Shown here piece after piece: positions 26,400-52,226 of a stretch of DNA of 64,000 nt. The DNA lies in NCBI GenBank assembly GCA_946122785.1, contig CAMGYJ010000002.1, positions 38,280,495 through 38,344,494 of the forward strand, read 5' to 3'. The first letter of the stretch is position 1. Each line of letters begins with the position of its first letter. This DNA comes from Linum tenue. Taxonomy: Eukaryota; Streptophyta; Magnoliopsida; Malpighiales; Linaceae. The notes under the pieces were generated by a model, which was given only the letters and a program-made list of their open reading frames with translations, searched no databases and was not told the origin of the DNA. The position numbers were made by a program, and so were the translations under genes.

Positions 26400-27921
26400 T
26401 GTTGACACCTAAAATTAATTTGGCCGGAATTAAATGCCGCATTAATTAGTCTCGTCATTTAAGTCGATACCGCTCGTAAAAAACGGTATCGTTGGGAGTC
26501 GAGCGGCGTTACGGAGAACTAAAACGGTACCGCAAGGAAGCTCAGCGGTGCCGCGGTATGCAAACGACACCGCTTACCGAAAAATAAGAGGGCCGCGCGC
26601 GGGTATTGGAGAATGCGTTTTCTCTAATTAATTATTATTTTTATTCCTTGTTGGATGGGAAGAAGCGGCACTGAGGGGAGTTAAAACGGTGCCGCGGAAT
26701 TAAAAACAGTACCGCGAGGAAGCCCAACGGTACCGCTATACAAGCAAACGACAGTGTTTAATAAAAAAACAATGTCGCAAAAGGAAAAACAAACGGAGCC
26801 GTTTTGGCGCTAACGATGTTGTTGGTCGTGGACTAGTGATGGTCAGATTAGTTAATTAATATTTTAATGACTTCTTAGCACGGTGTCGTTAGTTGAAAAC
26901 GATGCTGCAAGGGGAAGGAACGACACCGCGGATTTAAAGACGATGCCGCGAAGGGGCCAAACGATGCCGCAGTTGTTAAAACGACAGCGTTAAAGTTAAA
27001 GCGGCATCGCAAAGTTCAAGCATCCCAGAAATAGAAAACGATGCTGTTTAATTACTAACTGCGCCGCCAAGTGAGAGTTTGACAGCGTGTCAACAATGAT
27101 GGCCGGTTTAATTAATTAATATTTTAAGGATCAGTTAAGACGGTGTCGCTTTAGCTGAAAACGACATCGTGGGAGAAGTCGACACCGTCGCGGTACTGAA
27201 ACGATGGTGTTTAATTAAAAACAACGTCGCAGTGACGAGAGTTCAGCAATGGTGGATTTCGGCTCAGTGTCGTTTTGGATCAAGTTGCCACGTGCTCAAG
27301 CGGTTTCGCACTCGTGGGAGTTACGCAACAAGGAGGAAGTTACCTGCACGGTTGACAGATGTGAAGACGTGGGAGACAAAGGTGCGAAGGAAGTTACTAC
27401 GACGAGGAGAAGCGCGAAGTATAAAGATTGGGAAGAGAGAGAAGTTCGGGACGGCAAAATCAAATCAAAAACTGCACCATTGCAGAATCTATCTTTTTCT
27501 CTCTAGTTCGTAAAACTTCTCTGTCAAAGACCTCCTTTGCAGAGTCGTAGTAGCTTTAGATCGTAGTCGTAGTTGCGGAGCTCTCCAGAGGAACCTCCAT
27601 AGGAGTAGAGGTAACGTAACTTAGAGCACTCCTGGTTCGATTTTCTGGTTATTCGCCGAACACCCTTGTTCGAACGTAGTTTGGAGAGGTGGTGAACCGA
27701 ATAACGGTTGTTTGATTAGAAGTCAAGGGTGTATCGATCAAATCAACGACGCCGACACCGGCGGCGGATATTTGACGGTCTCCTTTGTTTTCTGTTTCGA
27801 TCGATCAAATCAACGGCGCCAACTTTGGCGACGGATATTTGACGGTTGTGATTAACGTTGTGTTTTGTGTGTTTACTTGAAAACAGTGCGCATTGAACAC
27901 ACGAGTTTCGCCAACGAAACA
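26400..27921 (+). repeat. 5' LTR of the Tat element
   Basis: 1522 bp. It aligns to the 3' LTR along its whole length. I count about 20 substitutions by eye, one 1-bp indel and one 14-bp difference near the end (present here at about 27888-27901, absent from the 3' LTR). The first 800 bp is studded with short CG-containing units of the type acggtaccgc, acgacaccgc and acgatgccgc. ORFs within it are not genes. Confidence 0.95.
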
Positions 27922-27923
27922 AA

Positions 27924-27944
27924 TTGGCACACCTGGTGGGACCC
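27924..27944 (+). promoter_or_regulatory. Putative primer-binding site of the Tat element
   Basis: TTGGCACACCTGGTGGGAC starts 2-3 bases after the LTR end, the expected place, and resembles in layout the TTGGCGCC..TGTGGGA site of other Tat elements. The matching tRNA cannot be named with certainty. Confidence 0.6.
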
Positions 27945-27954
27945 GTGTGTTCGA

Positions 27955-30714
27955 ATGGCTCTGCGACGGAAGAATCAAGAGGGCGAGCTTCCACCAACTT
28001 CAGTGGAGGAAGAGCCAATGGTCAATGTAGAGACTGACCAGAGTGGCGGTTCAAACGGCGGTTCGAGCAACGACGCCGGAGGGGAAGTGCCAGCAGTGGC
28101 GCAAACTGCCAACCAGGGTGAGATAACACGCATGCTTCGCCAAGTCATGGCTGATAACCAAACGGTAAAACTTCACTTAGCCTCTTTGGATGGACGTCTT
28201 GATGGTCTTAGTTCTCGGATTGATAGACGTGTTAGCCAACTGGTTGAAGTCGTAGATAAAAACAGAATGGATTTTGAAAGTAACAGACGTGATTTTAATG
28301 ACTTTAGAGAGTTTTTGAATAGGCCAGTGCCGCAAACAAGGGCTTTGCCGTTAAGCGGCGAGAATCCGTTACACTACGACACTGGCACCTTTCCGGTCAA
28401 TGGCGGCCGAGATACTCAGCCGAGACAGGGCGTTTCGCCGACACCGCTGGTGAACCCAACAAGTCCGTCGAGAGTAAATCCCGGCGAGACCAGCACTGCG
28501 GATAACACTCGTGTTGAGCCGCCACCAGTGCACAATGTGGGTCCACAAAATAATCCGGAAGCCAGACCCTACGTGGCTCCGATGAGCGGTGCTGGTGGTG
28601 GAGGAACGATCAACAATGATCATGTTCCGCCACGCGGCTACCCACAAAACGTGCCCCCTCCTCCTCCAAACGGGCTTGGCATGGATCCTGGTGGATTCGT
28701 ACCACAAGGGGGGCAACTCGGGGGGCAAGACGTTAATGCGATTCGAGATCAAGTAGCACAGATGCTGGCGGATCAGTTTGGTTTAGGGATTAGACCAGCG
28801 ATGCCGCCGGTGTATCGAAAACCATATCCGGATTGGGTTGATAGATACTACCCCTTTCCACGTGGTTTTCGCGTGCCTGATTTCATCACCTTCAGTGGGA
28901 TTGGGGATCAGTCCACTGTCGAGCATGTTGGACGATTCACGGTTCAGTGTGGTGATGTGAGTGATTTCTTGAAGTTGCGTTTGTTTGGCAACTCGTTGAC
29001 CGGCCCTGCATTCGCGTGGTACGTCAACTTGCCATCAAACTCGGTTCAAACTTGGCAGCAAATGGAACAAATGTTCCATGCCCAGTTCTACCGATCTGAG
29101 CCAGAAGTAACAATGGCAGACTTGGCACGAACGCGCCAACAGCCAGGAGAAACAGTGGAACACTTTTTAACAAACTTTAAAAATGCAAGAAATCGATGTT
29201 TTGTGAACTTGACAGAACGCGAGTTTGTTAAACTGGCCCAGGGTGGATTGAATTTTGAACTTCGTAAAAAGTTTCAAGATAGGGAGTTTTCTGATTTGTT
29301 TCCATTGATGTCCTGCGCTGTTAGATATGAATCTCTTCTCCGTGAAGAAGAACATATGAGAAGTGGCTCTCGCGGACAATATTTCCCTAATTTTGAAAAC
29401 TATGGTGTGAATAACGTCGGCAATGATGTTGACGAGGTTGAAGTTGATTTGGCCGAGATTGTGCAGGGGAAGCCATATGTGTGTGCTTCTCTAGCCAAGG
29501 CCGAGGGGGAACCACAAGGTGGAAAGCCCAATCGTGCTCTGATTCAAACTAGAAAATATTCCTTTGATGTCTCAAAATCAGAACTGATTTTCGACCAGCT
29601 TTACAAAGATGGTCAAATTAAGTTGACTGGGGGGCATACTATCCCGCCAGCTGAAAAATTAAAAGGGAAACGATACTGTAAATGGCACAACAGTGCATCT
29701 CATTCAACTAACATGTGTGTTGTGTTTCGCAATGTTGTGCAGGATGCAATTGAGAAAGGTCGGTTCAAGTTCCCATTGCCGAGAAAGGAGGCCATGATTG
29801 TTGACACGGACCCATTCCCAAACGTTGTCGACGTTAACATGGTCAATCCCGATTTCTCTAAGATCAACCTGCCACGCTTCAAGTTGGTAGTGGATACATC
29901 ACCGCCGCCGAGTGGTAGTTCTGATGTGGCCCAGGGTGCTTCATCCTCCCAAGTGCAGGAGGGGCCACGCTTGGACCCAGCTGAGGAAGAGAAGTTGTGT
30001 GCCCAGTGTCACGGAAAGCTAACCATTGGGGGAGCGGGACCGAGCCAGTCGGTCCACCAGAGATTGGGACCACGGCAGTTCAAACCGAGGTATCATTCAT
30101 ATGAACGCAGCGTCGAAGGAGTACGTGCACCTGCGTGGGGAAGAGGGCAGCGTAGGCAGTGGGTTGCTCAAAGTGCCTCGCCTTTCAAAATTCTACCTTT
30201 TGGACTTGCCCAACCAGTGAGAGCTCCCCCACCTGTTAGGAGAACCTTCAGGATGCCAAATGTGCCACGGGGTGGTTGGCACACCTACGACGTCCGTCGT
30301 CAGCAGCCCATCGCACTTGACGCGATGACAAGGACGCAGTATCGAAGGTACCTCCGCAAGAATGCTCAAGGAAGGAGGATTGCAAACTTGCAAGCAAATG
30401 TGAACGTAGACAACTCTGCCACGGGTCTGAGAGTGACTGTGGCCGGTGCTGGAAAGGTTGTCGAGGACAACCTGGACGGGAACGATCAGGGAGTCCCGGG
30501 GGAGGCTGAGTACGATGCTGAGTTGGATGACTCCCTCATCGAAGAGGAGATGCTGGAATTGGAGGAGCCGAAGTCGAAATTCGATCAGAAAAACAAGGAT
30601 GATGATGATGACAACCAAGGTGCACCCATGACGATCCAGTTTGGAAGTCTACCACCGGTGGTGGTGAACAACTACATCTTGCCTTTGGTTTTCCACATTG
30701 ATTTGGAAAATTAG
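27955..30714 (+). CDS. Gag of the Tat element
   Basis: 919 codons from the ATG at 27955, the first after the primer site (the frame itself is open from 27865, inside the LTR). The core retrotransposon gag domain lies around 28870-29360 (FLKLRLFGNSLTGPAFAWY, TRQQPGETVEHFLTNFKNARNR). A zinc-finger-like CKWHNSASHSTNMC motif lies around 29680. N-terminal and C-terminal parts are proline/glycine-rich and acidic. It ends at a TAG (30712-30714) that is followed in the same frame by further coding sequence, so the stop may be a decay mutation (AAT-TAG-GGA, plausibly from CAG) or the normal gag/pol boundary. Role: capsid-like particle assembly. Confidence 0.85.
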   Translation: MALRRKNQEGELPPTSVEEEPMVNVETDQSGGSNGGSSNDAGGEVPAVAQTANQGEITRMLRQVMADNQTVKLHLASLDGRLDGLSSRIDRRVSQLVEVVDKNRMDFESNRRDFNDFREFLNRPVPQTRALPLSGENPLHYDTGTFPVNGGRDTQPRQGVSPTPLVNPTSPSRVNPGETSTADNTRVEPPPVHNVGPQNNPEARPYVAPMSGAGGGGTINNDHVPPRGYPQNVPPPPPNGLGMDPGGFVPQGGQLGGQDVNAIRDQVAQMLADQFGLGIRPAMPPVYRKPYPDWVDRYYPFPRGFRVPDFITFSGIGDQSTVEHVGRFTVQCGDVSDFLKLRLFGNSLTGPAFAWYVNLPSNSVQTWQQMEQMFHAQFYRSEPEVTMADLARTRQQPGETVEHFLTNFKNARNRCFVNLTEREFVKLAQGGLNFELRKKFQDREFSDLFPLMSCAVRYESLLREEEHMRSGSRGQYFPNFENYGVNNVGNDVDEVEVDLAEIVQGKPYVCASLAKAEGEPQGGKPNRALIQTRKYSFDVSKSELIFDQLYKDGQIKLTGGHTIPPAEKLKGKRYCKWHNSASHSTNMCVVFRNVVQDAIEKGRFKFPLPRKEAMIVDTDPFPNVVDVNMVNPDFSKINLPRFKLVVDTSPPPSGSSDVAQGASSSQVQEGPRLDPAEEEKLCAQCHGKLTIGGAGPSQSVHQRLGPRQFKPRYHSYERSVEGVRAPAWGRGQRRQWVAQSASPFKILPFGLAQPVRAPPPVRRTFRMPNVPRGGWHTYDVRRQQPIALDAMTRTQYRRYLRKNAQGRRIANLQANVNVDNSATGLRVTVAGAGKVVEDNLDGNDQGVPGEAEYDAELDDSLIEEEMLELEEPKSKFDQKNKDDDDDNQGAPMTIQFGSLPPVVVNNYILPLVFHIDLEN

Positions 30715-31854
30715 GGAGAGGATGGCGAGGTCGTAATGGAGGTTGAGGAGTTGGACGAGGCTGCTCAAGAGGTCAACGTTGCTGAGCTAGTGAGCGGTTT
30801 TGCTCAACTGACTTTAGAGGAGGAGAATGAGGAGCCAGCTGCGGCAGAGCTGGTTGGCGAATCTGCGGATCTGCCAATCGAGGCTGAGCCGTGGAGTGCA
30901 ATGATGGCTCGCACGAATGGTCAAATTGACTTGGCAGTGTAGTCAGCCAAGCAAAACAAGAGTTCGCAGCGAATCCTGAAAGAGCTGTACGAAGCAGGCC
31001 ACAAAGCTGTTGGGCTACTGGGCGAAGATGAGGGAAGATATCCTTTTTACGTGTTATACCAAGGCCCGAAAGAGTCAACAAGTGTGCCGGTGGAGAACAT
31101 CACATGGGAATCAGACTTCGACAAGCTGGAGAAATCTATCCAGGCTGCAGAAGCGAAAGGGAAAGCCGTGGACGAAGGATCCATGGGTGAAGAATTGAAC
31201 AGGGTCGTTGTTTTCAACGAGCCCGAGCCGAAGATGATGCGTCATTTGAGGCCTCTCTACATCAAAGCCACACTTGACGACGTACCAATGTCGAGAGTCT
31301 TAGTTGACAATGGCGCCGCAGTAAACGTGATGCCAACAAGGATGCTGAAGAAGTTGGGCAAGAACACTAATGACTTGATCCCAACAGAAGTGTTTGTGAC
31401 AAGTTTCAATGGCGGGTCCACTTCTGCTAGGGGAATCCTCCCAGTGGTCGTGGGAGTTGGATCACAGAAGCGGATGAGTGCTTTCTTCGTGGTGGATGGA
31501 ATGATAAGCTACAACGCACTACTTGGTCGGGATTGGATCCACGCCAACAAGTGTGTTCCTTCATCACTGCATCAGTGTTTGATGTTTTGGAATGAAGACG
31601 GTGTTGTTGAGGTGGTACAGGCTGACACAAAGCCGTTTTCCGTTGGGGCCAACGTGGCCGAAGCTTATTTGTACCATGGAGATTTTGGACCACTCGAAAT
31701 CAGGAGCGGGGATGGAGGAACGACCAACGTCATAGTGTCAAGTGCACAGGTGTTGAGTAAGGCGTGTTTGGATCCATTGTCCGAAATCGTGAGACCATCG
31801 ATGATCACATTGGATGGTCCACTGAAATCTGATGAACAAGTCGATGATGAGTGA
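30715..31854 (+). pseudogene. Pol N-terminus with retropepsin-like protease
   Basis: Same reading frame as gag, interrupted by TAG at 30940-30942 and ending at TGA 31852-31854. It holds an acidic linker (30736-30930) and the protease around 31280-31520 (VLVDNGAAVNVMPTRMLKKLG, then LLGRDWIHAN). The catalytic motif is DNG instead of the more usual D-T/S-G; the same variant occurs in other Tat elements as I recall, so it may be normal. The next pol segment is in the +1 frame, overlapping at 31832-31854, so a frameshift separates protease from RT. Role: processing of Gag-Pol. Confidence 0.8.
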
Positions 31855-32872
31855 ACCACCTCGAGAGAAGGTGGTGGAGGCCGAAATCACGGCCTTGCGG
31901 GAGAAGTTGGCCGTCTATCAGTGCGAACAGAGGCTGGCTTGTATAGAGCCTGTCTTGATGGCCGACTGTGTTCCCGACGATGATGACTTGCCGACTAACG
32001 GCGAGGGTGTGAGTGACGAAGTGGAGAAGAAAAGCAACCTTGCTGCATGTGACATTTTAGAGGAGATCAACCTCGGCACGGAGGAGGATCCACGCCCAAC
32101 CTTCATCAGTGCCGGTTTGCCAGAGTCTGACAGGTACGAATTAATTGAATTCCTTAAAGAGTTTAAAGATTGCTTTGCATGGGATTATCATGAAATGCCT
32201 GGTCTAGATAGAAAGTTAGTTGAACATAGACTTCCCATTAAAGAAGGGTATAAGCCACATAGACAACCACCTAGGCGTTTTTCGCATGATATCTTACCTG
32301 AAGTAAAAAAGGAAATTGAACGTTTAATGAAGGCTAAGTTTATCAGGACTGCTAGATATGTGTTGTGGTTGTCGAATATTGTGCCTGTTAGAAAGAAAAA
32401 TGGCAAAATACGTGTTTGTGTGGATTTTAGAAATTTGAATAATGCTACACCGAAAGATTTGTATCCCATGCCGGTGGCTGACATGTTAATCGATGCCGTA
32501 ACCAGGCATGTCAAGTTTTCTTTCATGGACTGTTACTCGGGCTATAACCAGATATACATAGCCGAGGAAGATGTACACAAAACGGCGTTTCGGTGTCCAG
32601 GATCTATTGGCTGTTTCGAGTGGATCATGATGCCATTTGGATTGGCCAACGCCGGGGCAACTTACCAACGAGCAATGAATGCAATATTTCATGACCTGAT
32701 TGGCGAGCTTGTCGAAGTGTACGTGGACGACATCGTCGTCAAATCAAAGGTGACAAACCACCACCTTGCTCATTTGCGCAAAGCATTTCTGCGTATGCGT
32801 GTTCATAAGTTGAAATTAAATCCGCTCAAGTGTGCATTTGGTGTGAGTGCATGAAATTTTCTTGGTTTTCTG
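31832..32872 (+). pseudogene. Reverse transcriptase, split by nested insertion
   Basis: Fingers and palm are complete: LPIKEGYKPHRQPPRRF, IRVCVDFRNLN, FSFMDCYSGYNQI, FGLANAGATYQRAMN and the catalytic YVDDIVVKSK near 32720. A TGA at 32852-32854 (from CGA by context) truncates it, and 20 bp later the non-autonomous LTR element has inserted at the GTAAA target. The frame resumes at 38841 (NQRGIEVDGNKTKAI), which is the RT thumb/connection. Role: copying the RNA genome to DNA. Confidence 0.92.
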
Positions 32873-34343: not shown

Positions 34344-34492
34344 AGTTTTTGGCGCCGTTGCCGGAGACCCTCTAGGTTATTGGGGAAACGTGATAATTTG
34401 TTACTCTAGCTTTTTATTTATTGCACTTTCTTTTCTTTTCCACCCTTGCTTTTCACTTGGGTGTTATGTTTTTGTTGGTGCAGTTCTGAAAC

Positions 34493-37368: not shown

Positions 37369-38835
37369 TGATAGACCATCATTTACACATGTTTTACCCC
37401 CGTTCTTACACCGTTTGAGGTGTTGATTCTCGTGTTTTAGGCCGATTTCACGCTAGGTTGTGCTTGTTTATGATATTTCAGGTCCTAGTACGTGAATGGA
37501 GGCTTGGGAGCGAGTTTGAGGTCGATTGGACAAGGATCGGACGCATGGCGAGGTTCTGAGGAAGTCGCACGGGCACACCCACAACCCGCACGGCCGTGCA
37601 AGTGACCAGTTTGGCCGTGCGGGATTGTGCGTGGGCACGCACGGGATTGTGCATGGGCACGCACGGCCGTGCAAGTGACCAGTTTGGCCGTGCGGGATTG
37701 TGCGTGGCCACGCACGGCCGTGCAAGTAACCAGTTTGGCCGTGCGGGATTGTGCGTGGGCACGCACGGGATTGTGCGTGGCCACGCACGGCCGTGCACCT
37801 GGCCGTGCAAGAAGGCTGAGATCGAATTAAGTGAAACGGCGCGTTTCAGGGTGCACGGCCAGAATGGTGATGTGCACGGCCGTGCACCTGGCCGTGCAAC
37901 TCGGGAAAGCCGGTTTTAAAGCCTAATCCGAGCCAGAAGTGGGAGAATCGTGTTTTCAGAGCAAAAACAGAGCCCTAGAGAGAGAAAGTGCGAAGAACAC
38001 ACCCTAGAAGCTGTCTTAGAGCTGGATTTCATCGAATCGAGCCTGGAGATCGTCATAGGAGTGAAAATCATCGTCCCGGAGCAGATTATCCTCATCGTTA
38101 TGAGTATGACTAATCCGATTCTTGTTTTCTCTTCTCTCTCTATGGAGTAGAACCCTTCTCTCACTTGGGTATGAAGAACCCTAGTTCCTTGTGTTAGGGA
38201 TTTGATTGTAATGACTTGGGATGATATTACTGTTTGATTTTAATCGAATGACGCATGTTTAATGAATTAATTTGAGTCTGATCAGCTTGTCTCAATTTCT
38301 GCTTCAACCTGAGATAGATAGAATCTGATTAGGTTGTTAGAGCCTCTTCATTCGATAGTAGGGGATTGGCTATACGAGAGTTAGCCAGTTTACTGCTTTG
38401 TACTGGTGTTCTTGACGCCAGTAGTGGAGTTCTGTGTTCATAGCCTCAGCTTTCTATTCCGGCGAAGACTAGTCGTCTGCCGGGTAGTTGGACTGAGAGG
38501 GCTTGGTCAGCTTAAGAGATTCCAAGCTACTGTCGGATCTTCCGCAGTCTAATCAACAGTAAATCAACCCAGGGAATTGCAATTGAACCTAACTAAGGGG
38601 CTAGGGGGACTCAATCCCGAGTGACTCTTACCTGCTTTAGAAACCCGAATAATTTACTGCTTTCTTGTTGCTTTTACTTTTCACAACAATCACTCGACTT
38701 AGTTTGCTAGATAATAGAGAATCACGGAGTAAGCAGTAGATCTAGACCCCGGGTTGATAATTAAACTTGCCTATACTGCAGTCCCTTTTATTGGTTACAC
38801 TTGGCCATTGTTAGGTGTTGTGTTTTAGCGTGTCA
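37369..38835 (+). repeat. 3' LTR of nested element
   Basis: Mirror of the 5' LTR. The minisatellite (about 37565-37800) has a rearranged order of the same units, including one gtgcatgggcacgc variant. Confidence 0.95.
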
Positions 38836-38840
38836 GTAAA

Positions 38841-39950
38841 CCAACGTGGAATTGAGGTAGATGGCAACAAAACAAAAGCCATCATCAATGCCGCACCACC
38901 ATCCAGTAAGAAAGAGTTGCAATGTTTCCTCGGCCAGGTAAATTACATTCGAAGATTTATCTCGAATTGTGCTGGCCGGGCCCAAGTGTTTTCCTCACTG
39001 CTGAAGTTGAAGAAGGAAGACAAGTTTGTATGGAGGGAAGAACATCAACGAGCATTTGATGATATCAAGAGATACCTAGCGACTCCGCCGGTGATGAATT
39101 CTCCCAAAGCAGGGGTGCCGCTGAAGTTGTACTTGTCAGCCACGGACACGTCGGTGGCATGTTTGTTGGCTCAAGACAACGAAGCAGGCAATGAAGAAGC
39201 CATTTATTATCTAAGTAGGGTTTTGAACGAGGGCGAGAGAAAGTATTCCCCCATAGAGAAGTTATGTTTAGCGTTGTACTTTTCTTGTACAAAGCTACGC
39301 AACTACCTGGTCCCTGTCCAGGTACAACTCATTTGCTAAACAGACTTGATTAAATACATGCTATCTCGGCCAATTATTCATGGCCGAATTGGCAAGTGGA
39401 CCTTGGCTCTGTCTGAATTTAATTTAGAGTATGTACCTCAACGAGCCATAAAAGGGAAAGCATTGGCAGACTTCTTGGCAGATCATCCCTGCATTGAGGT
39501 GCCAATCGATCCCGTAGAAGTTTGCGAGGTTGGCATAACGCCATGGATCCTGTATTTTGACGGATCCAAAACTCGTGGCGGTGCCGGGGCTGGCGTGATG
39601 TTGAAAGCACCATCAGGCCGAGCCATGCATTTTGCATTCTCGTTGGATTTTCCTTGCACCAACAACCAAGCTGAATATGAAGCTTTGGTAGTCGGGCTGG
39701 AAATGCTCATTGAGCTTGGAGTGCGCTACGTGGATGTTAAGGGAGATTCATAGTTGGTGGTTCATCAGGTCCGCGGAGATTTTCGTTGTATCAATAGCGT
39801 TCTAGAAACATATCTGGACCATGTATTGTCGTTGACTTCCCACTTCACAGTATGGCGATCAACTTTGTTCCTCGAATGGACAATTGCGAAGCCAACTATC
39901 TTGCACAAATGGCTTCGGGATTTAGAGAGTTTGCGAAAAGCAATGCAGTA
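38841..39950 (+). pseudogene. RT connection, RNase H and second RNase H of the Tat element
   Basis: After the nested element the pol frame resumes: RT thumb (LQCFLGQVNYIRRFI), the first RNase H (LYLSATDTSVACLLAQ, AIYYLSRVLNEGERKYSPIEKLCLAL, KGKALADFLADHP), then a second, archaeal-type RNase H (ILYFDGSKTRGGAGAGVML, NNQAEYEALVVGLEM, KGDS). In-frame stops are TAA 39337-39339 and TAG 39751-39753. A one-base frame change occurs near 39850. The dual RNase H arrangement places the element in the Tat lineage. Confidence 0.88.
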
Positions 39951-41290
39951 GAGCAAATAGTGGTGCAAACACTTAAGCCCTAGCGGGAGCGATTGAGAGT
40001 TGAGCAAGTGTGCGTAATAGAGAAAGACGCCGATGACTAGCGTGCACCACTGTTGTCTTACTTGCAAGATCCGAACAAGGTTGTTGACCATGCCATCAAG
40101 TTTAGAGCAAGAAGCTACGTAGTTTTGGATGGGACCTTGTATAAACGCAGACCTGATGGGTTATTGCTGAAATGCTTGGGGGGCAAGGAGCCATGGCAGA
40201 GGTGCATGAAGGAATATGCGGAGCTCACCAAGACGGTCTTTCCATGCGATGGATTCTACATCGCTATGGATTCTACTGGCCCACCATCGGGCCAGATTGT
40301 GCCGCATATGCCAAGGGCTGCGAGGCTTGTCAACGTCACGGTCCTGTTCAAAGGGCGCCGGTGGTTGACCTGAAGTCAATAATCAAACCGAGGCCATTTT
40401 ATGGTTGGGCCATGGATTTGATTGGTATGATTTATCCCCCATCGTCAAAGAAACATGTTTTCATAATTTTGGTCACTGACTACTTCACTAAGTGGGTGGA
40501 GGCCAAACCATTGAAGGTGGCGAACCAAGAGGAAGTGATTTCTTTCATACAAGAACATATTATTCATCGATTTGGTTTGCCGGCAACGATAACGGCGGAC
40601 CAAGGAACTGTGTTCACTGGGGGGCAAGTTATGGAGTTCGCGGCGGAGCGGGGGATAAAAATTATCCATTCCACGCCGTATTATGCACAAGCCAACGGGC
40701 AAGCGGAAGCATCCAACAAGGTCGTGAAAAATATTTTGACGAAGATGATTGAGGATAATCCGCGGCGTTGGCACGAAATTTTGTCAGAAGCGTTGTGGGC
40801 ATACAGGATGTCCCCGCGGAGCAGTACGAGAGTGAGTCCATTCTCGCTAACTTACGGGCATGAAGCATTCCTTCCCGTTGAAGTGACTGTCAACTCACTC
40901 CGGTATATGAAGCAGCACAAGTTAACACCTCAGGAGTATCATGAATCGATGATGCTCGAGCTCTGCGATCTTGATGAACTTCAACTCCGCGCCCTTGATA
41001 ATGTTCAAGTACAGAAAGCAAGAGTGGCAAGAGCTTATAACAAGAAGGTTCGACACAAATCATTCGAGGAGGGCGAACTGGTTTGGAAAGCTCACTTGCC
41101 GATTGGGGAAAAAGATCCCAAGTTTGGAAAATGGTCGCCAAATTGGCGTGGACCATTTGTGGTACATTCTGTGCGTCCTAATGGAGCGTACCTGCTAAAA
41201 GACTTGGACGGAGTGATACATGAGCGTTTGATAAATGGCAAATATTTAAAGCCATATGTGTCGTCCTTATGGGACGCAGCGGGTCATTAA
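39951..41290 (+). pseudogene. Integrase of the Tat element
   Basis: 39951-40180 links to integrase with TAG stops at 39981-39983 and 40038-40040 and a frame change in the G-run near 40180. From 40172 the frame is open for 372 codons. It contains the zinc-binding region (HEGICGAHQ, then CEACQRHG) and the catalytic core (VTDYFTKWVEAKPL, TADQGTVFTGGQ, YYAQANGQAEASNK, supplying the D, D, E triad). The C-terminal part (FEEGELVWKAHLPIG, KWSPNWRGPFVVHSV) is the GPY/F-type module. No chromodomain. Role: inserting cDNA into the genome. Confidence 0.9.
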
Positions 41291-41875: not shown

Positions 41876-44337
41876 CTAGGCGAGCTGCTGGGCAATGCAG
41901 GATAGAGTGGTACGGACCCAAGTGAAAAAGCTCTGCACTGCTTGCAACTCAGTCTGTGCTTCTATCTCCGCGCGAGTGGGGTCAGTGGCGAACCGGGCCG
42001 CATCCTCACGTCGCGTTTGTTCAACCCCTTTGACGAGAGTAGGCATTGTACTTGCTCTAACCGCCTGCAGAGCTGGTGCCACGGCTTTCCCGCGTTCCAC
42101 TAGGTCTTTACCCACTGTGCGGAGGAACGCCATGTCAGCATCACTAAGTGGTGGGATGTTAATGCTCAAGGTCTCCAGAGTTTTGCAAGCAGAGCCGGGC
42201 CATAATATGGTTTGGTCACTCATGGAAGTCACCAGAGGAATGCTAAGAAATTGGTCCATCATCTTCAATGCTTCTCTGACTCGGCGTTGAAGTTCAGCCA
42301 TGGGTGACGCGGGGAGTGAGCTAGATGATTCCATCGCAGTGTTGAAGCCGTACCTGGTGTCAAAATCGGCGGTGTCCTGCTGCAAAAAGAAACAAGGGTG
42401 TGAGTAGGAGGTTAGCTAAAAGATGGTCGAGTCGTAGTATGAGAAAGCATGAGTAAAGCTAACCTCGACGACCGGAGTGGTGCGAAGAGATGGAGGGGGG
42501 CGAGTAAGTGGATGATGACTCTCCACAACTGCAATAAGTAAGGTTTCAAGAGGGCGGCGAACACTTGCATGAGTAATGTGGGAGTTAAAATATGAATGTC
42601 ACAGCAAGCATAAAGAGGAGTGCGAGGACGAGGATCGTACCTGCTCGCCGTTTCAAGTGAGTATTGAATGCTGACGTAGTTGAACCACCATCGTGGTCAG
42701 GAGCAAGCCGGGCGAGGATATCAGATAACGGCTTGCCGAAAATGCGGGAGGCTAGTGAGTTCCATGCATCCTTGAACTGGGGCGAGGCTTTATTCACCAC
42801 GTTTTTATGAGGAGGAAAGTATTGTGCAGATTCTTGGTAACCTCGTACCTCCATGATTTGTCCAGCAGTAAGCTCCGAAGAGCGGATGTGGAATTTTGGA
42901 AAATTCAAGGACGAGGCTGGTAACATAGGCCATGCTTGAACGAGGTTGAATTGTCGAGCAGCAAGTTGAGGGTTGTAAGTCTCAATACTGAGTACTTCTG
43001 AGCCGGTAGGAGCAAAGAGGAGGTCCCGAGCTGTCAGGTACCGTTGGCGCTCTTCATTGAATTCATGATAAGCAGCGGGATCACCTCGCGGTGGTGGCTT
43101 GTCAAAAACTAGTTTGAAAGAAGCGGGGCCGAATATCCGTTCCGCGAAAGGGGTGAAGCTGGGAATCTCTCGGACTTCATAAAAGAAGGTAAAATAATTA
43201 GTGAAATCCTCTTTCCGCGAAGCTGCTTTAGCCAAACAATGGCCATATGTGAGCATGGTGGTATCTTGAACTGCCGTTTGTAGAGCTGGTAGAGGGCCGC
43301 GAGTCGCCGTGAAATAAGCATGCAGCCAAAGTTGTAGTAGCCATAGAGGGCCAGCACTGAGGAGGCCACATGCGTCTGGAGCCTCCTTGACACGGTTCAC
43401 GATGGTAAACAGACCGCGATAGAGGTGGCAGAGCACAATTTCATCAAGATTGACACATTCACCAGTGAAGATTGCAAAGGTGGCACGCGCATCCGTGATG
43501 GGTTGTTGGGTGCAAAGCACGAATCGACCAAACCAGTAATGAAGGAAGGCAACCCGCTCGCTGTCGGATACGGGTTCACCCGGAACGACTGGCGCATTGT
43601 TGTTGTAGAGCGATTCGTAGGATCGGTCAAGAGCTATCGAGGTAGCTGGGGCCAAAGCTCTCCTTGATTGCATGCGCGGCTTTGATAGGCCAGTCAGGGC
43701 CGCTATGTCGAGCAGAGTGATCGTCATCGAGCCCAATGGGAGCACGAAACAGTTCGATTCCGTTGACCAGAAGCAGAAAGCGGCTTTGAGCAACTCGGGA
43801 TCAGGGCTCGGCAGCTCTGAACATAGAGAGAGAAAGCGGTCGAGGCCTAATGCCTGCCATTGAGATACAGTTGTGGCATCATGGGCCAACAGACCATGCC
43901 AACGTTTGAAGTTGGGATCCGGGATGGCCTACGGGAGGGCTCGGGTTTTCTGTTTAAAGAGTGGGCTGATGACGGGGAGACGAAACAGAAGCTGAGATTC
44001 GTGAATTGGAAAAACGTCCAATAGCTCCATGATGGCAGTGGTTCGGTCATGAATGAGTGGACCAAGCCAGCCCTCCTCATTGTCGTCTCTCGGTACTATC
44101 TCAAGAGTGAAGTCAGCATCGGCTAGGTTTCCTAGGAAATCCCGTCGTTCCCCTGGAGATAACGGGAGGAGAGCCGCGACGAGGCTGCATTCGCAAAGAG
44201 GTGAGTTGGGTTAGTGATGCAGCGGCGGCTATTCACCATAACAGGCATTAACTGGGAGAGAACAAGGCTTCAATATTAATGTGGAGTTAGGGGAGCAGAA
44301 CTTACTCGGCGATCGACGAGAATCCTGGCAATGACAT
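41876..44337 (-). pseudogene. Antisense spliced plant mobile domain (PMD) gene, copy A
   Basis: On the minus strand exons 44306-44337, 42641-44184, 42464-42528 and 41876-42379 join with GT-AG introns in one frame of 715 codons, broken by a single TAG (43929-43931). Exon 2 has the plant mobile domain signature (WQALGLDRFLSLCSELP, AAFCFWSTESNCFVLPLGSMTITLLDIAALTGL). The last exon is a helical tail (PMAELQRRVREALKMMDQF). PMD proteins in plant genomes are of host or transposon origin; the host members MAIN/MAIL act in silencing and genome stability. This gene lies inside a Tat element, opposite to its sense coding direction, and is homologous to copy B. Function here is unknown. Confidence 0.85.
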
Positions 44338-44997
44338 GACGACGACTTCAACGGCGCAGAAATCTGAGGTACGGTTTTCTGCTCCGTTGTTGGTTGAAGT
44401 TTGTTCTTCTTTTTACTCGGGTAAGTTTAGGGTTGGCACTTGTGACCTATTTATGGAGAATTGTGGCGGCGGAGTAGAAAGAAGTAGTGTCCCTTTTGGT
44501 TGGGGATTACAACGTTGGAAGGGAATAGGATCTCAAGTTAGAGATCCACCAACGCTACCGAAGCAACATCGCAGGGGCGAGCCGTTAAATTGATATGGTG
44601 AGGAGATTATATTTGGCCAAGATTAAATAATAATAGAAAATTATGCTTTTGGCCAAGATTTAACAAAAAAACGAAGGCATACTTGGCATGGCACAACCAA
44701 TATTTTGAAGTTGCCTGAATAGAAAATTGGCCAAAACAACTTTGTTTGGCTATTGCACGGTGCGGAGATGAATTGGAGCAAGTCGACGGAAGACACTACT
44801 GTCCTGTCATCCACAGTGCTGCGGGAGAAAGGGAGCAGCGAATTTGGCCTTTAGTTTTGCCAAAGCAGCATTGCAGGGATGATCCGGGACTGGACACGCG
44901 GGTTTGTTGAGGCGGGAAACTTGTCGTCGCGTTTGGGCCAAGTACGAAATTTTTTTGCAGGCAGAGCTGCCGCTGTTGCTAGCAGCGCCGATGAAAA

Positions 44998-45049
<52 letters not shown>

Positions 45050-46179
45050 GAAAGAGCCTCTCAGCGCTGCGGCTGTGGCTGAGGTCCATGATAAAAAAAT
45101 CGGCCATGGTAAAACAAAAGAAAACACGAATTGGTCCACACAGAGTTGCGGACTAAGAAAGAACGCAAGCAGCCCTGCGATGCTATTTGTAGCATTGGTG
45201 GCAAGTAAAAAAAAATAATAATAATGACTAATGCTGCTGGTTGCTTTGCTTGGTGTTTAAAAAATAAAAATAAATTTTTTTAGCTCTGCCGCTGTTTCTA
45301 AGCAGCTCTGGCGGAGAATATATAAAAAAAATATATTTTAGGTCTGCCGCTATTTCCAAGCAGCTCTGGCGGAGAGTAATATAAAAAAAAAGAATTTTGT
45401 AGGCAGAGCTGCCGCTGGTGCTAGCAGCGCTGGTGAAAAATATAATAAAAAAAATTACTTGGTTGACAGCGGTGTAAACAACGCGGATGAGGAAGTTGAA
45501 AAAAAAATAATAAAAGAAGAAATTTCTCTTGCCGCTGTTGCAGTCAGCTTTGGCGGAAAAGAAAAAACCGGCCAAGCAATATCGCGGCTGTAGCGGAAAT
45601 TTAACAGGCCTGACACAAAATATATATATAATGTGTGGCCGAGGCGGCTATGCAGGCCTGCTAAAGAGAAAAGTTTGCCGCTGCAGTGTGGGTTCAATTT
45701 GGCCAAATTTTGATTAAAATTACAATAAAAAGAGTTCTCCTCCTTATTATGATTGGCGAAGAGGGATCTAACAGGCCTGACAAAAAAAATATAGCCAAGC
45801 CCGATCGGTTTGAGCTAAACAGGGTTGCAGTCCTGCGTAGCTGTTGCAGCTTGCAACGAGACTGTTTCTTTGACCTAAATAGTGTTGTCGAGCTAGCATT
45901 GCGGATTAATAATATGGTGAAATGCCATTGTTTGGAACGCCAAAACAGTGCTGCGTTGTTAAGTTCGGCCAGAACAATGGGAGTTACTGAAATATCAGTG
46001 CGAGTAGAGAAAATTTTTTCGGCATCGATGATGAACTAAAATAGAAAAATTCTGATTGTTCAAGAGAGCAAACCGAGTGAAAAAGAAACATTAGCGGCCG
46101 CACGAGCATGCCGAAACAAAATAAATTCAGTTCGAAATAAATAGAGGCTGAAAGTAAATGTAACGAGCTACTAAAGACA
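44338..46179 (-). other. Upstream spacer of PMD copy A with GCTCTGGCGG repeats
   Basis: This 1.8-kb stretch lies between the two antisense genes. From about 44930 to 45600 it repeats, degenerately, a ctgccgctg...agcagctctggcgga unit with A/T-rich linkers, plus an (AAT)n tract at 44999-45046. The same kind of units lies upstream of copy B, so gene and upstream region seem to have been duplicated together. It would hold the promoter of copy A. Confidence 0.6.
44999..45046. repeat. (AAT)n microsatellite
   Basis: About sixteen AAT units. Confidence 0.95.
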
Positions 46180-49100
46180 TTAGCCATTGAGATGCTTGGC
46201 AATATAGGCTAGCTCCGCCCGCAAGGTGTCAAGACCGGTTCTTGCTGTTTGCCGAAGTTGAACGGCTTGCGCCTGCTTGATCTCATGCTTGTCATCGACC
46301 AAGGTTGTCTCCTACGCCGCTAGCGTCTGAGTTTCAACAGTGAGAGCTGTAATAGAGGCCTGAATTGCTGTGCGTTGGGAGACATCTCCGGCCAGTTCTT
46401 TTTTCTTGGCATGCACGTCCGCCTCAAGTCTGCTCAATTCGGCCTTCATCGCAGCAATTTTAAGTTCATCTGACAAAATTTCTTGCTCACGAGTCGCGCA
46501 CTGCTGAGATCGAGCATCGTATTGAGAGGATAGATCCTTGAAGCGCGCGGTGTTGACAACGAGCTGCGCCTTGATGGATTGGAGGGCCGTTCCCCTTTCG
46601 GCACTGTTCTTTTCCAGCTCGAGAGCGTCATGAGCACACTGTAGGTAGTTTTGCGCAAGTTGTTGAGCTTGCTTGGCCGTAGTCGTCTCTTCTAGGCCAA
46701 GTCCGGGCAGGATTTCGGAAGCACCCAGTCCTCCCAATGCAGAAAAAGCTGATTCAAGCTCGCTTGGTTGTGGAGGGTCAACCGCTTCTTCTAAAGATAG
46801 AGAGAGAAACTGGGTAATCTTGACGATAGCGTCTTTTATGGCTTGGGTTCGTGGATCAAGGTGGACCTCCGTAGAGAGTGGAGGTCGAGCTTTAGCCAAG
46901 GAGGCGAAGAACTGCCCTGCAGTCTCCAGGTCTGGCTGTGCCTGCAAAACCATAGAAGAATGGTCAAAAATACCACAGCGAAGGAAGAATCACTATAAAG
47001 AAGGATGAGTAGTTAGGGTTACCGTCATTGCTGTGTTCGGTGAAGTAACACTGACGGTAGATGGAGCGGATCGGGAAATGTCAGCGAATGGAGACGATCG
47101 AGCTGCCAAGGATGTGAAAGATGGTAGCGTCGTGCTAGCTGAGGAGGTGCGCGTAGCTGTCAAAACGAAGCTGGCGGGTCGAAGAGGTGAGATGGTCTGA
47201 GCAGTACTGGTGGTGTTTCTTGTGCCTGAAGAAGTAAGGGCAAGGCTAACAGGGGTGGCCAGCGGTGTCCGAGCTTGAATAGAGGGAGCAGGGGTACCTT
47301 CACGCTCGGCCGTCAGTAGCGGGCCAGAGTTCTTGTTCAACGGAGAATCGGACTCTGAATGGCTAGCCTATCCCGCAGGGCTGTTGCTGTCACGATCAGG
47401 AGTCGAATCTGTTAAGGTGTCCCCATCATCGTCGGAGTCAGCCTCGGATTCAATGCTCATGCTATCGGAGGTAGAGTCGTTTTCGTCATCGGACTCCTCA
47501 TCCCCTTGATCCTACAAAGAAAGAGGGTTGCTTAAAAGGGCCCCTAGTCCAGGAAAGAAAAGCGGAAGCATGACAAGTATAGCTACGAGGTGATGACAAA
47601 ACGAAGGGAATGCTACAGGTTTCTCAAGGGAAGCCGTGAAGAGGAATTACCTCAAGAGGGGTGATCGGACGACTCTGTTTGGCAGGGCGAGTATCACCAG
47701 GAAGTTTTCCACCAGCTACGCGGGAAAGATGGCCGTGTAAATTGGCTAAAGAAGAGGCCCGCAGAGAAAAAATAAATAAAAAAATATAATAACCGAGATA
47801 AGTAGAGGTACATACATGCTCGGCGTTTGGCTGAATCCGGATGGGGAGATACATCGCCATCATTATCGTCAGTTCCATCAAGCCCGCACTGGGTGATGCG
47901 ATTGATGACATTGGCCGTCGGTTCTTTGAAGTAACGAAGCTCTTTAGTATTCCAGGCCAACCTATACGGCGATGTCACGGCACCCTCGGTTGCATTGAAG
48001 TGCTTGAATGCGTTGGGAAGCAAATAGTCCCGACAGGCTTCCACCTCCGCGATGCCCTGCGCAGGGAGTGATGCTATCCGAGTATACAGTCGTGGGTAAT
48101 TCTTCGAGAAAGCAAGCGCAAGAGGCCATTGTTGCACCAATCCGAACTGGCAGGAAGAAAAGTGTGGGTTGTAGACCTCGATGCTGAGATCGGCCGAAGC
48201 TCTAGGAGCAAAGAGCATGTCTCTAGCCACTATCCAACGACCCCATTCTTCCATGTACCAGTTGTAATCGTCAAGCGAGCCATCCCCTCCCGTTGGTCGT
48301 TGGCCAAAAACGAGTTTGAAAGAGGGAGGTCCAAAGAACCGAGCTGCAAAAGGGGTGAAACTCTCTACACTTCTGGCCTTGTAGAAAATCGGGAAGTATA
48401 TGGAAAAGTCCTTCTTTAGTGGAGCAGCTTTGGCATAATAATGGCCGTAGGATAGGATCCCGACATTGGAGACCATGTTGACGGGCGCTGGCAACGAACT
48501 TCGCACGACGGGGAAGTAAGCATATAACCACAGCTGCACTAGCCAAAGGGGGCCAGCGCCGGTGACTTCCCTCTTCGCAGTAGCCTTCTTAATTTGTTTG
48601 ACGATCAAATACATGCCCCGGTAGAGATGACACAGTACGATCTCCGCAAGGTTGACGCATCGTCCAGCAGAAATCTCAGAGGAAGTCTCGGTGTCTTGCA
48701 CGAGTTTGCTGCCGCCTCGACAAAGAATGAACTTATTTAGCCAGTAGTGAATGAAGTATGCTCGCTCCTTGTCCGTGACCGGTGCCGCGGGGTCGGCCGG
48801 GGAATTAGTGTTGTAAATAGAGCGATAGGAGCGATCAAAGTGACCGGGGTTGTTGGGGATGAAAGGAGTTCTAGCAACGGCGGAGGTCGACATCTCGAGA
48901 GACCGGTTAGTGCGACAAGATCCAGTAGGGTGATGGTCATGGTCCCCAGTGGAAATACGAAGCTGTTGGATTCGGTGGACCAGAAGCATATAGCAGCCTT
49001 GAATAGATCTACATCTGGTTGGGGAAGATTGGCGCAGAGAGACAAGAAGCGATCTATGCCTGCGTCCCTCCATTGAGCAGCAGTGGTTTCATCAGCGAGC

Positions 49101-49827
49101 AGGCGAGAATACCATCTCACAAAGTCCTTGTCGAAGAGAACCCAGGAAGATAGAGGTCGTTTCGGCTTCTGTTGAGTGAAGTATGGATTGTCGGTGGGTG
49201 AACAACGAAGGAGTAGCCGAGCGTGAGCGGTGGGGTAAATGTTCATATCAGCCATGGCTGGATCGCCGGGGTTGACGATAGCAGGACCGTGCAACCCCTC
49301 TCCTTTGTCTGTTAGTGAAAGGGTGTCAAGTTCTATGGCGTGAGAGCTATCCAGGTTCCTCCATCTTTCCTGTGGATCGTCAATACTGCATATGTGAGCT
49401 GCGAGGTCAACTAGAGGGAGCCTGTCAAGAGAAGAAGCCAACAAGTAAAAGTTAAAAGGCGGGGGAGTAATTCAATTTAAGGAAAGACAGGGCAGTTGGG
49501 TACATGGCGGTTCACGTATGGAGCATGCATGGAATAATCACGGAAATCAGCAAAGATAGAGGCATGCCGCACAGGAAGTAAAGCACAAACATCGGCTAGC
49601 AGGAATGAAAAGGTACGAGTAATTTACATTGGTCATATGCCAAGTTGCATAATATATACACATCACAGGCAGGCTTGAATGATCAGGAAGGAACAGGGAA
49701 TAAGGGCGCCGAAAATATAATAATATGAAAAAAAAAACACAAAGGCGCCGAAAAAAAAAGAGAGAAAAGAGTGGCGTGAAAAAATTCAGTACCGGATTTG
49801 AGGAGGTACACGACCGCCAGGAGCCAT
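46180..49827 (-). pseudogene. Antisense spliced plant mobile domain (PMD) gene, copy B
   Basis: Minus-strand exons 49793-49827, 47816-49421, 47651-47745, 47023-47511 and 46180-46941 with GT-AG introns; about 995 codons. The PMD core (FLSLCANLPQP, AAICFWSTESNSFVFPLGTMTITLLDLVALTGL, then FIHYWLNKFILCRGG) is homologous to copy A throughout exon 2, as are the positions of the first two introns. Exon 4, Ser/Thr/acid-rich, has no equivalent in copy A. Exon 5 is a helical coiled-coil-like tail (QYDARSQQCATREQEILSDELKIAAMKAELSRLE). It is broken by a 1-base deletion near 48900, a TAG at 47368-47370 and a TAG at 46312-46314; the last is 44 codons before the apparent original TAA (46180-46182). Decayed but structurally complete. 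Confidence 0.85.
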
Positions 49828-50707
49828 GGTGGGGCCTTGGGTGTGGAGAGGTTGGAGTTGCGTGCTCGAGGAAGAGTCGAAGGCGAGATGGGGAGCTTTG
49901 CCGAAATTCAACGGTGATGAATGGGAATTATGAGGGTAGCAAGGCTGTTTATTTACAGAGAATGAGAGTAAATGCCCAAACCGGTATGGAAAAGGATACT
50001 TGAAGCCTTTCCACCGCAGGAAAGGGATAGAGATTTATTTGCTTTCCTTGATGAGAAAGGAACGAAAAAATATATTCTCATGTGGTGTGCAGCACTGATA
50101 GCGCAAAAATATATATAAAAAAATAATAATTAATCATGCAGCGCTGCCGTGGTTTCCCCAGCCGTGAAAGAAGAGGAAATTTTTTTTTCAGGCCTGCCAC
50201 AACAGCTCTGGCGGCAAATTATGAAAAAAAAAAAAAATCAGTTCTGCCCGCTGCTTCCCCAGCTCTGGCGGAAAAGAAGAAAAAATTTCCAGCCTGTTCC
50301 CAACAGCCCTGAAAAGAAAAAAAAATTAAAAAATTAATTAATCATGCAGCGCTGCCGTGGTTTCCCCAGCCGTGAAAGAAGAGGAAAAAAATTTTCAGGC
50401 CTGCCACAACAGCTCTGGCGGCAAATTATGAAAAGAAAAAAAAAATAATAAACTAGCCGCAGCGTTGCAGGGCTGATGCAGCGTTGTGGACGGAATACAC
50501 AAGGTAATGAGAACTCCACAAAAATAATTATGTATGGGTTTGAGCAGCACCGAGGAGAATTGGTTTGCGTGGCCATCACTTTGTTTTGGCAAATCACATA
50601 ATTTTGCCAACATGGTTGTTTTGGGTTTGGTCTGCATGATTCACAAGGTATTTTAAGTGATTTAAATTGTATAAACAATTTGGTTCATAATTCTTATAAA
50701 CCAAATT
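49828..50707 (-). repeat. Upstream region of PMD copy B with duplicated block
   Basis: It contains two near-identical copies of a block of about 90 bp (50131-50222 and 50338-50430, starting taatcatgcagcgctgccgtgg) with gctctggcggcaaattatg inside, related to the repeats upstream of copy A. The right end runs into the polypurine tract of the element. Confidence 0.75.
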
Positions 50708-50719: not shown

Positions 50720-52226
50720 TGTTGACACCTAAAATTAATTTGGTCGGAATGAAATGCCGCATTAATTAGTCTCGGCATTTAAGCCGATACCGCTCGTAAA
50801 AAACGGTATCGTTGGGAGTCGAGCGGCGTCGCGGAGAACTAAAACGGTACCGCAAGGAAGCTCAGCGGTGCCGCGGTATGCAAACGACACCGCTTACCGA
50901 AAAATAAGAAGGCCGCGCGCGGGTATTGGAGAATGCGTTTTCTCTAATTAATTATTATTTTTATTCCTTGTTGGATGGGAAGAAGCGGCACTGAGGGGAG
51001 TTAAAACGGTGCCGCGGAATTAAAAACAGTACCGCGAGGAAGCCCAACGGTACCGCTATACAAGCAAACGACAGTGTTTAATAAAAAAACAATGTCGCAA
51101 AAGGAAAAACAAACGGAGCCGTTTTGGCGCTAACGATGTTGTTGGTCGTGGACTAGTGATGGTCAGATTAGTTAATTAATATTTTAATGACTTCTTAGCA
51201 CGGTGTCGTTAGTTGAAAACGATGCCGCAAGGGGAAGGAACGACACCGCGGATTTAAAGACGATGCCGCGAAGGGGCCAAACGATGCCGCAGTTGTTAAA
51301 ACGACAGCGTTAAAGTTAAAGCGGCATCGCAAAGTTCAAGCATCGCAGAAATAGAAAACGATGCTGTTTAATTACTAACGGCGCCGCGAAGTGAGAGTTT
51401 GACAGCGTGTCAACAATGATGGCCGGTTTAATTAATTAATATTTTAAGGATCAGTTAAGACGGTGTCGCTTTAGCCGAAAACGACATCGTGGGAGAATTC
51501 GACACCGTCGCGGTACTGAAACGATGGTGTTTAATTAAAAACAACGTCGCAGTGACGAGAGTTCAGCAATGGTGGATTTCGGCTCAGTGTCGTTTTGGAT
51601 CAAGTTGCCACGTGCTCAAGCGGTTTCGCACTCGTGGGAGTTACGCAACAAGGAGGAAGTTACCTGCACGGTTGACAAATGTGAAGACGTGGGAGACAAA
51701 GGCGCGAAGGTAGTTACTACGACGAGGAGAAGCGCGAAGTATAAAGATTGGGAAGAGAGAGAAGTTCGGGACGGCAAAATCAAATCAAAAACTGCACCAT
51801 TGCGGAATCTATCTTTTTCTCTCTGGTTCGTAAAACTTCTCTGTCAAAGACCTCCTTTGCAGAGTCGTAGTAGCTTTAGATCGTAGTCGTAGTTGCGGAG
51901 CTCTCCAGAGGAACCTCCATAGGAGTAGAGGTAACGTAACTTAGAGCACTCCTGGTTCGATTTTCTGGTTATTCGCCGAACACCCTTGTTCGAACGTAGT
52001 TTGGAGAGGTGGTGAACCGAATAACGGTTGTTTGATTAGAAGTCAAGGGTGTATCGATCAAATCAACGACGCCGACACCGGCGGCGGATATTTGACGGTC
52101 TCCTTTGCTTTCTGTTCGATCGATCAAATCAACGGCGCCAACTTTGGCGACGGATATTTGACGGTTGTGATTAACGTTGTGTTTTATGTGTTTACTTGAA
52201 AACACACGAGTTTCGCCAACGAAACA
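50720..52226 (+). repeat. 3' LTR of the Tat element
   Basis: 1507 bp, counterpart of 26400-27921, lacking the 14-bp stretch present near the end of the 5' LTR. Followed by GCCAT, the imperfect target copy. Confidence 0.95.

Follow-up and report, generated by a model that had tools for sequence, protein, structure and literature searches.

The stretch of Linum tenue DNA analysed here (64,000 nt, in the following the window; assembly GCA_946122785.1, contig CAMGYJ010000002.1, positions 38,280,495 to 38,344,494) contains a long terminal repeat (LTR) retrotransposon of the Tat lineage, and between its integrase gene and its 3′ LTR lie two multi-exon genes, here called A and B, that run opposite to gag-pol and encode proteins with a plant mobile domain (PMD). 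Gene A occupies positions 41876..44337 of the minus strand and consists of four exons (44337-44306, 44184-42641, 42528-42464 and 42379-41876), with the PMD in exon 2 and introns of 121, 112 and 84 bases; the acceptor of exon 4 that is common to its relatives lies three bases further on, at 42376. Gene B (46180..49827, minus strand) has five exons (49827-49793, 49421-47816, 47745-47651, 47511-47023 and 46941-46180), separated by introns of 371, 70, 139 and 81 bases. All seven introns have GT-AG borders, and introns 1 and 2 interrupt both genes at identical places and in identical phases (2 and 1). The fourth exon of gene B encodes an acidic, Ser/Thr-rich segment that has no counterpart in gene A, and the last exon encodes a long helical tail. 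The entire stretch from the integrase to the 3′ LTR measures 9.4 kb and holds both genes. This arrangement agrees with an initial annotation of the window, which had placed two antisense PMD genes at 41876..49827, between the integrase and the 3′ LTR of a Tat element, with the first two intron positions in common, about 9 kb of cargo and an extra exon in B.

Both genes score above the curated Pfam cut-off for the PMD family PF10536 (34.9 bits), gene A with an E value of 3.9e-20 (72.8 bits) and gene B on two open reading frames (ORFs) with 9.7e-13 and 2.1e-9 (48.4 and 37.5 bits); a copy of gene B elsewhere in the genome reached 85.2 bits. Over the PMD, A and B are 42% identical (374 aligned positions). 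Helical tails are present in both proteins, as had been proposed, but the idea that it is one common C-terminal tail was not borne out to the same degree, the likeness being weak (hhalign E 0.07, based on 24 of 30 gene A tails, namely those without stops, with L013 and L032 excluded beforehand) and common descent not established. Comparison by sequence of the PMD ORF of type A with solved structures gave no match at E values up to 1. A TATA-like box (CATAAATA) is located at 44448..44455 on the minus strand, 118 bases before the ATG of gene A, and the corresponding position for gene B (49950..49957, minus strand, with TGTAAATA in the window) lies 130 bases before its ATG. The spacer between A and B (44338..46179), which lies upstream of A, has degenerate repeats in common with the spacer that precedes B (blastn, 76% identity over 86 bases, E 5e-9). 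Degenerate repeats of the type CAGCTCTGGCGGA were observed in both spacers of the PMD region, at 44980-45400 and 50100-50450.

In the window, both genes are damaged, a point on which the initial annotation was silent, as it was on the split of pol by a nested element and on the discordant histories of A and B described below. Gene A carries an in-frame TAG in the early part of exon 2 (43931) and ends 8 codons earlier than most relatives; in gene B, a single base shifts the frame near 48900, and TAG codons follow at 47370 and 46314. Judged by these lesions, this particular pair is probably dead and would no longer give rise to full proteins. The statement that all splice sites had been retained was right, but the window copies of both genes carry stops and that of B a frameshift as well. 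Because both copies are disrupted, the argument for function has to come from the family.

A DNA search of the genome to which the window belongs (692 Mb) yielded at least 40 places with gene A, the window included; this is a lower bound, with 40 places scored among 63 candidates, some of them incomplete. Gene B was sought beside gene A at 10 plus 9 of the 39 other places. Slices of 4.5 kb were used for ten of these, with an extension in two cases, and here B or its exon 5 adjoins A in nine: eight have exon 2 of B, and one has exon 5 followed by a nested insertion. At the one place that lacks B, the A-B spacer continues into the spacer between B and the LTR and then into the LTR itself. Among the nine lower-ranked places, read with 1.4-kb slices, B was seen in two, and the negatives there say little. 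The copies were picked by their similarity to gene A; elements with a diverged A, or with B alone, fall outside the sample. The pair is therefore found in other copies of the element, as anticipated, and the three outcomes that the initial annotation had named as contradicting it (no match to the PMD profile, no other copies with these genes, an insertion unique to this locus) were each looked for and none was found. Protein homologues at E values up to 1e-5 came from Linum trigynum alone when the best word-sharing candidates were scored, a result that says nothing on other plants. They include both A and B types, and one public type A protein begins within exon 2 and continues past the end of this exon into intron 2.

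For gene A, 30 copies (L009-L038, window included) were fetched and aligned. The ATG, donor 1, acceptor 1 and donor 2 are conserved in 30/30 copies, acceptor 2 in 29/30, donor 3 in 28/30 and acceptor 3 in 27/30 (counted by eye, at the shared AG), and a TATA-like box lies ~110-126 bases before the ATG in 29 of the 30. With copy L032 dropped, the ratio of nonsynonymous to synonymous divergence (dN/dS, or omega) had a median of 0.31 in the PMD exon (393 pairs, 29 copies) and of 0.52 in the tail (377 pairs, 29 copies), while the divergence of the introns amounted to 0.54-1.18 of the synonymous divergence, dS (medians of bins). As a control, identical sites were read in the five other frames. The true frame of exon 2 contains 0.5 stops per copy at an omega of 0.31, compared with 12.8-33.2 stops and omega values of 0.42-1.32 in the other frames; the reverse frame with the lowest of these values (0.42) has 19.6 stops per copy, and such an omega is to be expected where third positions coincide. 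For exon 4 the true frame has 0.1 stops per copy and an omega of 0.47, the other frames 1.6-13.4 stops and 0.50-1.03.

Gene B was aligned in nine rows (the window and eight others), and the following counts are limited to the rows that cover a site. Conserved are the ATG, donor 1 and acceptor 1 (9/9 each), donor 2 (8/8), acceptor 2 (6/8), donor 3 and acceptor 3 (8/8 each), donor 4 (3/3) and acceptor 4 (2/2). A TATAAATA box is situated 123-135 bases upstream of the gene in eight of the nine copies, and the window copy differs from it by one change. Three elements, L044, L045 and L046, carry versions of B whose exon 2 is 72-74% identical to that of the window. Between such deep B lineages, dS reaches 1.0-1.8 and dN/dS is 0.09-0.13; within the single B lineage formed by L044 and L045, the values are 0.12 and 0.14, respectively. 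The exons of the deep lineages are 60-76% identical and, where coverage is complete, contain no more than 6% gaps, in contrast to the introns with 45-65% identity and 8-58% gaps. We regard this contrast between exons and introns as the best single sign that B is kept as a spliced protein gene. We put the probability that the anatomy of both genes is as described, and that purifying selection has acted on their spliced reading, at about 0.9.

The two genes have not travelled together. In exon 2 of gene A, L044, L045 and L046 differ from the window by a dS of just 0.19-0.20, and one A type thus occurs with B types that are separated by the far larger distances given above. The opposite case was seen in one pair of elements, with a dS of 0.133 in A and 0.039 in B. 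By these distances, A and B of the same elements do not have one common history, and the simplest reading would be recombination between element lineages, as by template switching. Other parts of the region vary as well: across the 30 gene A copies, the block of intron 1 falls into two classes that are 2-9% or 22-25% different from the window, and the spacer upstream of gene A ranges from 2% different to unalignable, which makes it a patchwork.

The host element is delimited by a 5′ LTR at 26400..27921 (plus strand, as for all of its features that follow; TG...CA ends, flank GCCTT) and a 3′ LTR at 50720..52226 (flank GCCAT), which were paired by self-BLAST. The flanks represent a 5-base target duplication with one change. 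The LTRs are 98.5% identical in the aligned core (Kimura two-parameter distance 0.0134 over 1503 aligned bases). Substitution rates of 1.3e-8 and 7e-9 are in use for LTR dating, and with these the insertion would be about 0.5-1.0 million years old, which makes the element a young one. The internal region encodes, in this order, gag (ORF from stop to stop, 27856..30714; PF03732, 1.2e-11), an aspartic protease (ORF from stop to stop, 30943..31854; PF13650 at 2.2e-5, above the cut-off, and PF13975 at 8.2e-6, just below its cut-off), reverse transcriptase (RT, 31826..32854; PF00078, 6.3e-26, profile positions 1-192 of 205), the RNase H of pol (RH, 38815..39339; PF17919, 4.5e-23), an additional RNase H (aRH, 39340..39750; PF13456 RVT_3, 1.4e-8) and integrase (INT, 40157..41290; PF00665, 1.1e-10, and PF17921, 3.6e-6). 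The aRH in the interval between RH and INT is the hallmark of Tat elements, and this order has been described for the angiosperm Tat elements Ogre and Retand (Neumann 2019, PMC6317226). The element belongs to the Tat lineage of Ty3/gypsy, as the initial annotation had it. The PMD cargo is only a hint at the Ogre clade, whose marks are its place in RT/RH/INT phylogeny, the type of primer binding site (PBS) and a spliced gap that separates the gag-prot and RT ORFs. The mark of Retand, Transposase_28 (PF04195), was absent from five A- and B-type proteins, in which hmmscan at E values up to 10 matched PMD alone; this search covered those five proteins, not the other ORFs of the window.

The host RT is interrupted near its end by a nested LTR element (32878-38835) with LTRs at 32878-34343 and 37369-38835 that are 96% identical and GTAAA flanks on both sides. 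With RT split in this way, the window copy cannot be autonomous. A 390-aa ORF of the nested element (34490-35662) had no Pfam match, and a solo LTR of the same family lies at 54526-55868 (flanks GTAAC). Elsewhere in the window, a large palindrome (24881-26195; arms of ~580 bases, 96.5% identical, loop of ~160 bases) ends ~200 bases before the 5′ LTR, a further inverted pair is located at 4453-4859 and 5378-5793, and at 57759-60734 direct repeats of 350 bases (94% identical) surround a stretch of high GC content (up to 64%) in which both strands carry long ORFs; two of these ORFs were tested and gave no Pfam match.

Regarding the possible function, the PMD proteins MAIN and MAIL1 interact and act in the silencing of transposable elements (TEs) (PMC7156037, PMC5418596), and a review suggests that TEs may produce PMD proteins as a means of counter-silencing (PMC8616336). 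The element family carries two paralogous antisense accessory genes, each of which would have an internal antisense promoter for RNA polymerase II and would yield a spliced transcript. The sign of such promoters in A and B is the conserved TATA-like box alone. A published precedent is the antisense gene of Grande, whose product is nuclear and which is driven by a promoter of its own (PMC7264820). The introns would outlast retrotransposition, as the genomic RNA is the sense strand, in which antisense borders are not read. This is the general way in which antisense introns persist through copying, the sense genomic RNA not exposing their borders. The proteins may then have a nuclear role, with chromatin or the PMD proteins of the host as targets, and A and B could work jointly or on different partners. 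The most likely outcome, of which we are less sure, would be that the element escapes or tunes MAIN/MAIL-type silencing, either against or through the MAIN/MAIL1/PP7L module. Accordingly graded, we consider it somewhat probable that A and B are nuclear accessory proteins, whatever their target, and hold an anti-silencing role only tentatively. A live rival, in our view rather unlikely, is that the PMD proteins serve retrotransposition itself, through import of the pre-integration complex, target choice or RNA handling, in a manner unrelated to silencing. Genes kept in many copies and under selection would fit this equally, and a review has proposed for such proteins a function like that of retroviral accessory proteins (PMC7264820); on the other side, the PMD proteins characterised in Arabidopsis have functions in gene expression and in the silencing of TEs (PMC5418596, PMC7156037). 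The sequence does not tell these two roles apart.

Several observations weigh against the reading of A and B as a selected pair of spliced genes for nuclear accessory proteins. Near-identical neighbours occur among the gene A places (three on C5 and two on C4), and not all 40 represent independent insertions. Only 9 of the 30 A copies are open for at least 680 codons. Close copies of B gave omega values of 0.33-0.64, in which selection is mixed with post-insertion decay. In the tail of gene A, the comparison of frames is less telling, one reverse frame having just 1.6 stops and an omega of 0.50. Two runs of structure prediction returned no usable fold (mean pLDDT, the predicted confidence score, of 32.5 and 31.5). 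Furthermore, the role of A and B is proposed here from sequence alone, and anti-silencing by TE-encoded PMD proteins is in the cited literature a suggestion rather than a result.

The origin of the pair was examined in a tree of 19 PMD proteins, rooted at the midpoint and with several long branches. One group with full support (100/100) unites the A and B types and excludes five other PMD loci and three host PMD proteins of the genome, which may or may not belong to the MAIN/MAIL clade (PMD-C). The B types are mutually 71-72% identical and share 44-46% with A. A and B are probably paralogues: a single PMD gene, with the stretch upstream of it, would have been duplicated long ago, which fits both their grouping and the spacer repeat that they share. 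Two PMD clades found only in Gypsy elements, PMD-A1 and PMD-A2, have been published (PMC5418596), and A and B could correspond to them. A separate acquisition of A and B from two such lineages, instead of duplication within one, would suit the depth of their split (42% identity, branch to A of 0.97) and the unsettled branching of the B types relative to A, which leaves the order of splitting open. We nevertheless consider it unlikely given the two common intron places and phases, the position of A and B together against the other PMDs compared, and the repeats common to both spacers. The genome-wide PMD search gave 155 matches from 117 scored of 3509 candidates, again a lower bound. At none of the five other PMD loci was a second PMD seen within ~6 kb on each side, although known PMDs match the queries weakly and a distant one could be missed. 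Four of these five loci had no match to gag, RT or INT of the window. The fifth, L057/L058 (C7:51184300-51197700), is a gypsy element of another kind, in which a single PMD gene lies in sense orientation ~3.3 kb after the integrase; its RT is 31% identical to that of the window.

Two further explanations bear on whether A and B are protein genes of the element at all. The antisense transcript could matter rather than the protein, by forming double-stranded RNA or by damping sense expression, as has been proposed for antisense ORFs generally (PMC7264820) and as phased small interfering RNAs from PMD genes in tea might suggest (PMC10673657). We think this very improbable, as the codon-level constraint, the near gap-free exons beside free introns and the kept splice sites point to protein, and the dN/dS results disfavour RNA as the sole role. 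Chance capture of host genes at this single locus, suggested by the resemblance of intron-bearing genes within a retroelement to host genes, is ruled out by the other copies with B beside A and by the distance of A and B from the three host PMD proteins compared.

Parts of this picture are already known, namely PMD genes in Tat elements, antisense accessory genes, the promoter of Grande gene23 and the suggestion of anti-silencing. Of the Ogre elements, 57% have PMD genes (Neumann 2019, PMC6317226). In a survey of Retand, every cluster contained antisense coding regions, and 97% of the clusters have an antisense Transposase_28 (PF04195) protein in the interval from pol to the 3′ LTR (Vicient 2025, PMC11963269). 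The element described here resembles the PMD-bearing Ogre/Tat elements (extra ORFs, or eORFs, of Neumann 2019; PMD-A1/PMD-A2 of Ikeda 2017), Ogre being a Tat clade, in having an extra PMD gene in an angiosperm Ty3/gypsy element. It differs from them by two paralogous PMD genes that are tandem, antisense and intron-bearing, a pair that the cited parts of those papers do not mention; the survey of Neumann 2019 took eORFs of at least 250 codons from getorf, with exons not joined. With the TRP28 ORFs of Retand (Vicient 2025) and with Grande gene23 it shares an antisense gene between pol and the 3′ LTR, but here the domain is PMD instead of Transposase_28, there are two genes with introns, and the stretch from pol to the 3′ LTR spans 9.4 kb, compared with 2,933-6,566 bp in Retand clusters (PMC11963269). 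MAIN/MAIL genic proteins belong to the same PMD family and are host genes, whereas A and B are element-borne. The protein VANC21 of VANDAL21 (named in PMC8616336) is an element-encoded counter-silencing protein and can serve as a model for the role proposed for A and B, with the activity shown for VANC21. In the open-licence literature searched, we found neither a selected pair of spliced antisense PMD genes in tandem nor the swapping of one member of a PMD pair between lineages described. VANDAL21 is a DNA transposon, and its VANC21 is unrelated to PMD proteins. The initial annotation had called the arrangement unusual, which is justified for the selected, spliced tandem pair and less so for PMD genes and antisense coding regions in Tat elements as such.

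LTR retrotransposons of plants commonly have antisense ORFs, whose status as real genes has often been left undecided. Near gap-free exons beside freely changing introns make a strong case for protein, and surveys of uninterrupted ORFs would fragment such genes, as can be seen in the type A protein of Linum trigynum. The question whether PMD proteins encoded by TEs work against their relatives in the host finds a natural test case in this pair. As a more speculative possibility, which we regard as a long shot, the element may keep a matched PMD pair as a counterpart of the interacting host pair MAIN/MAIL1, with A as the shared module and B exchanged between lineages by recombination, as if B set the element or the host partner that is served. 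If true, this would be a two-part, exchangeable counter-silencing system that is new for plant LTR retrotransposons.

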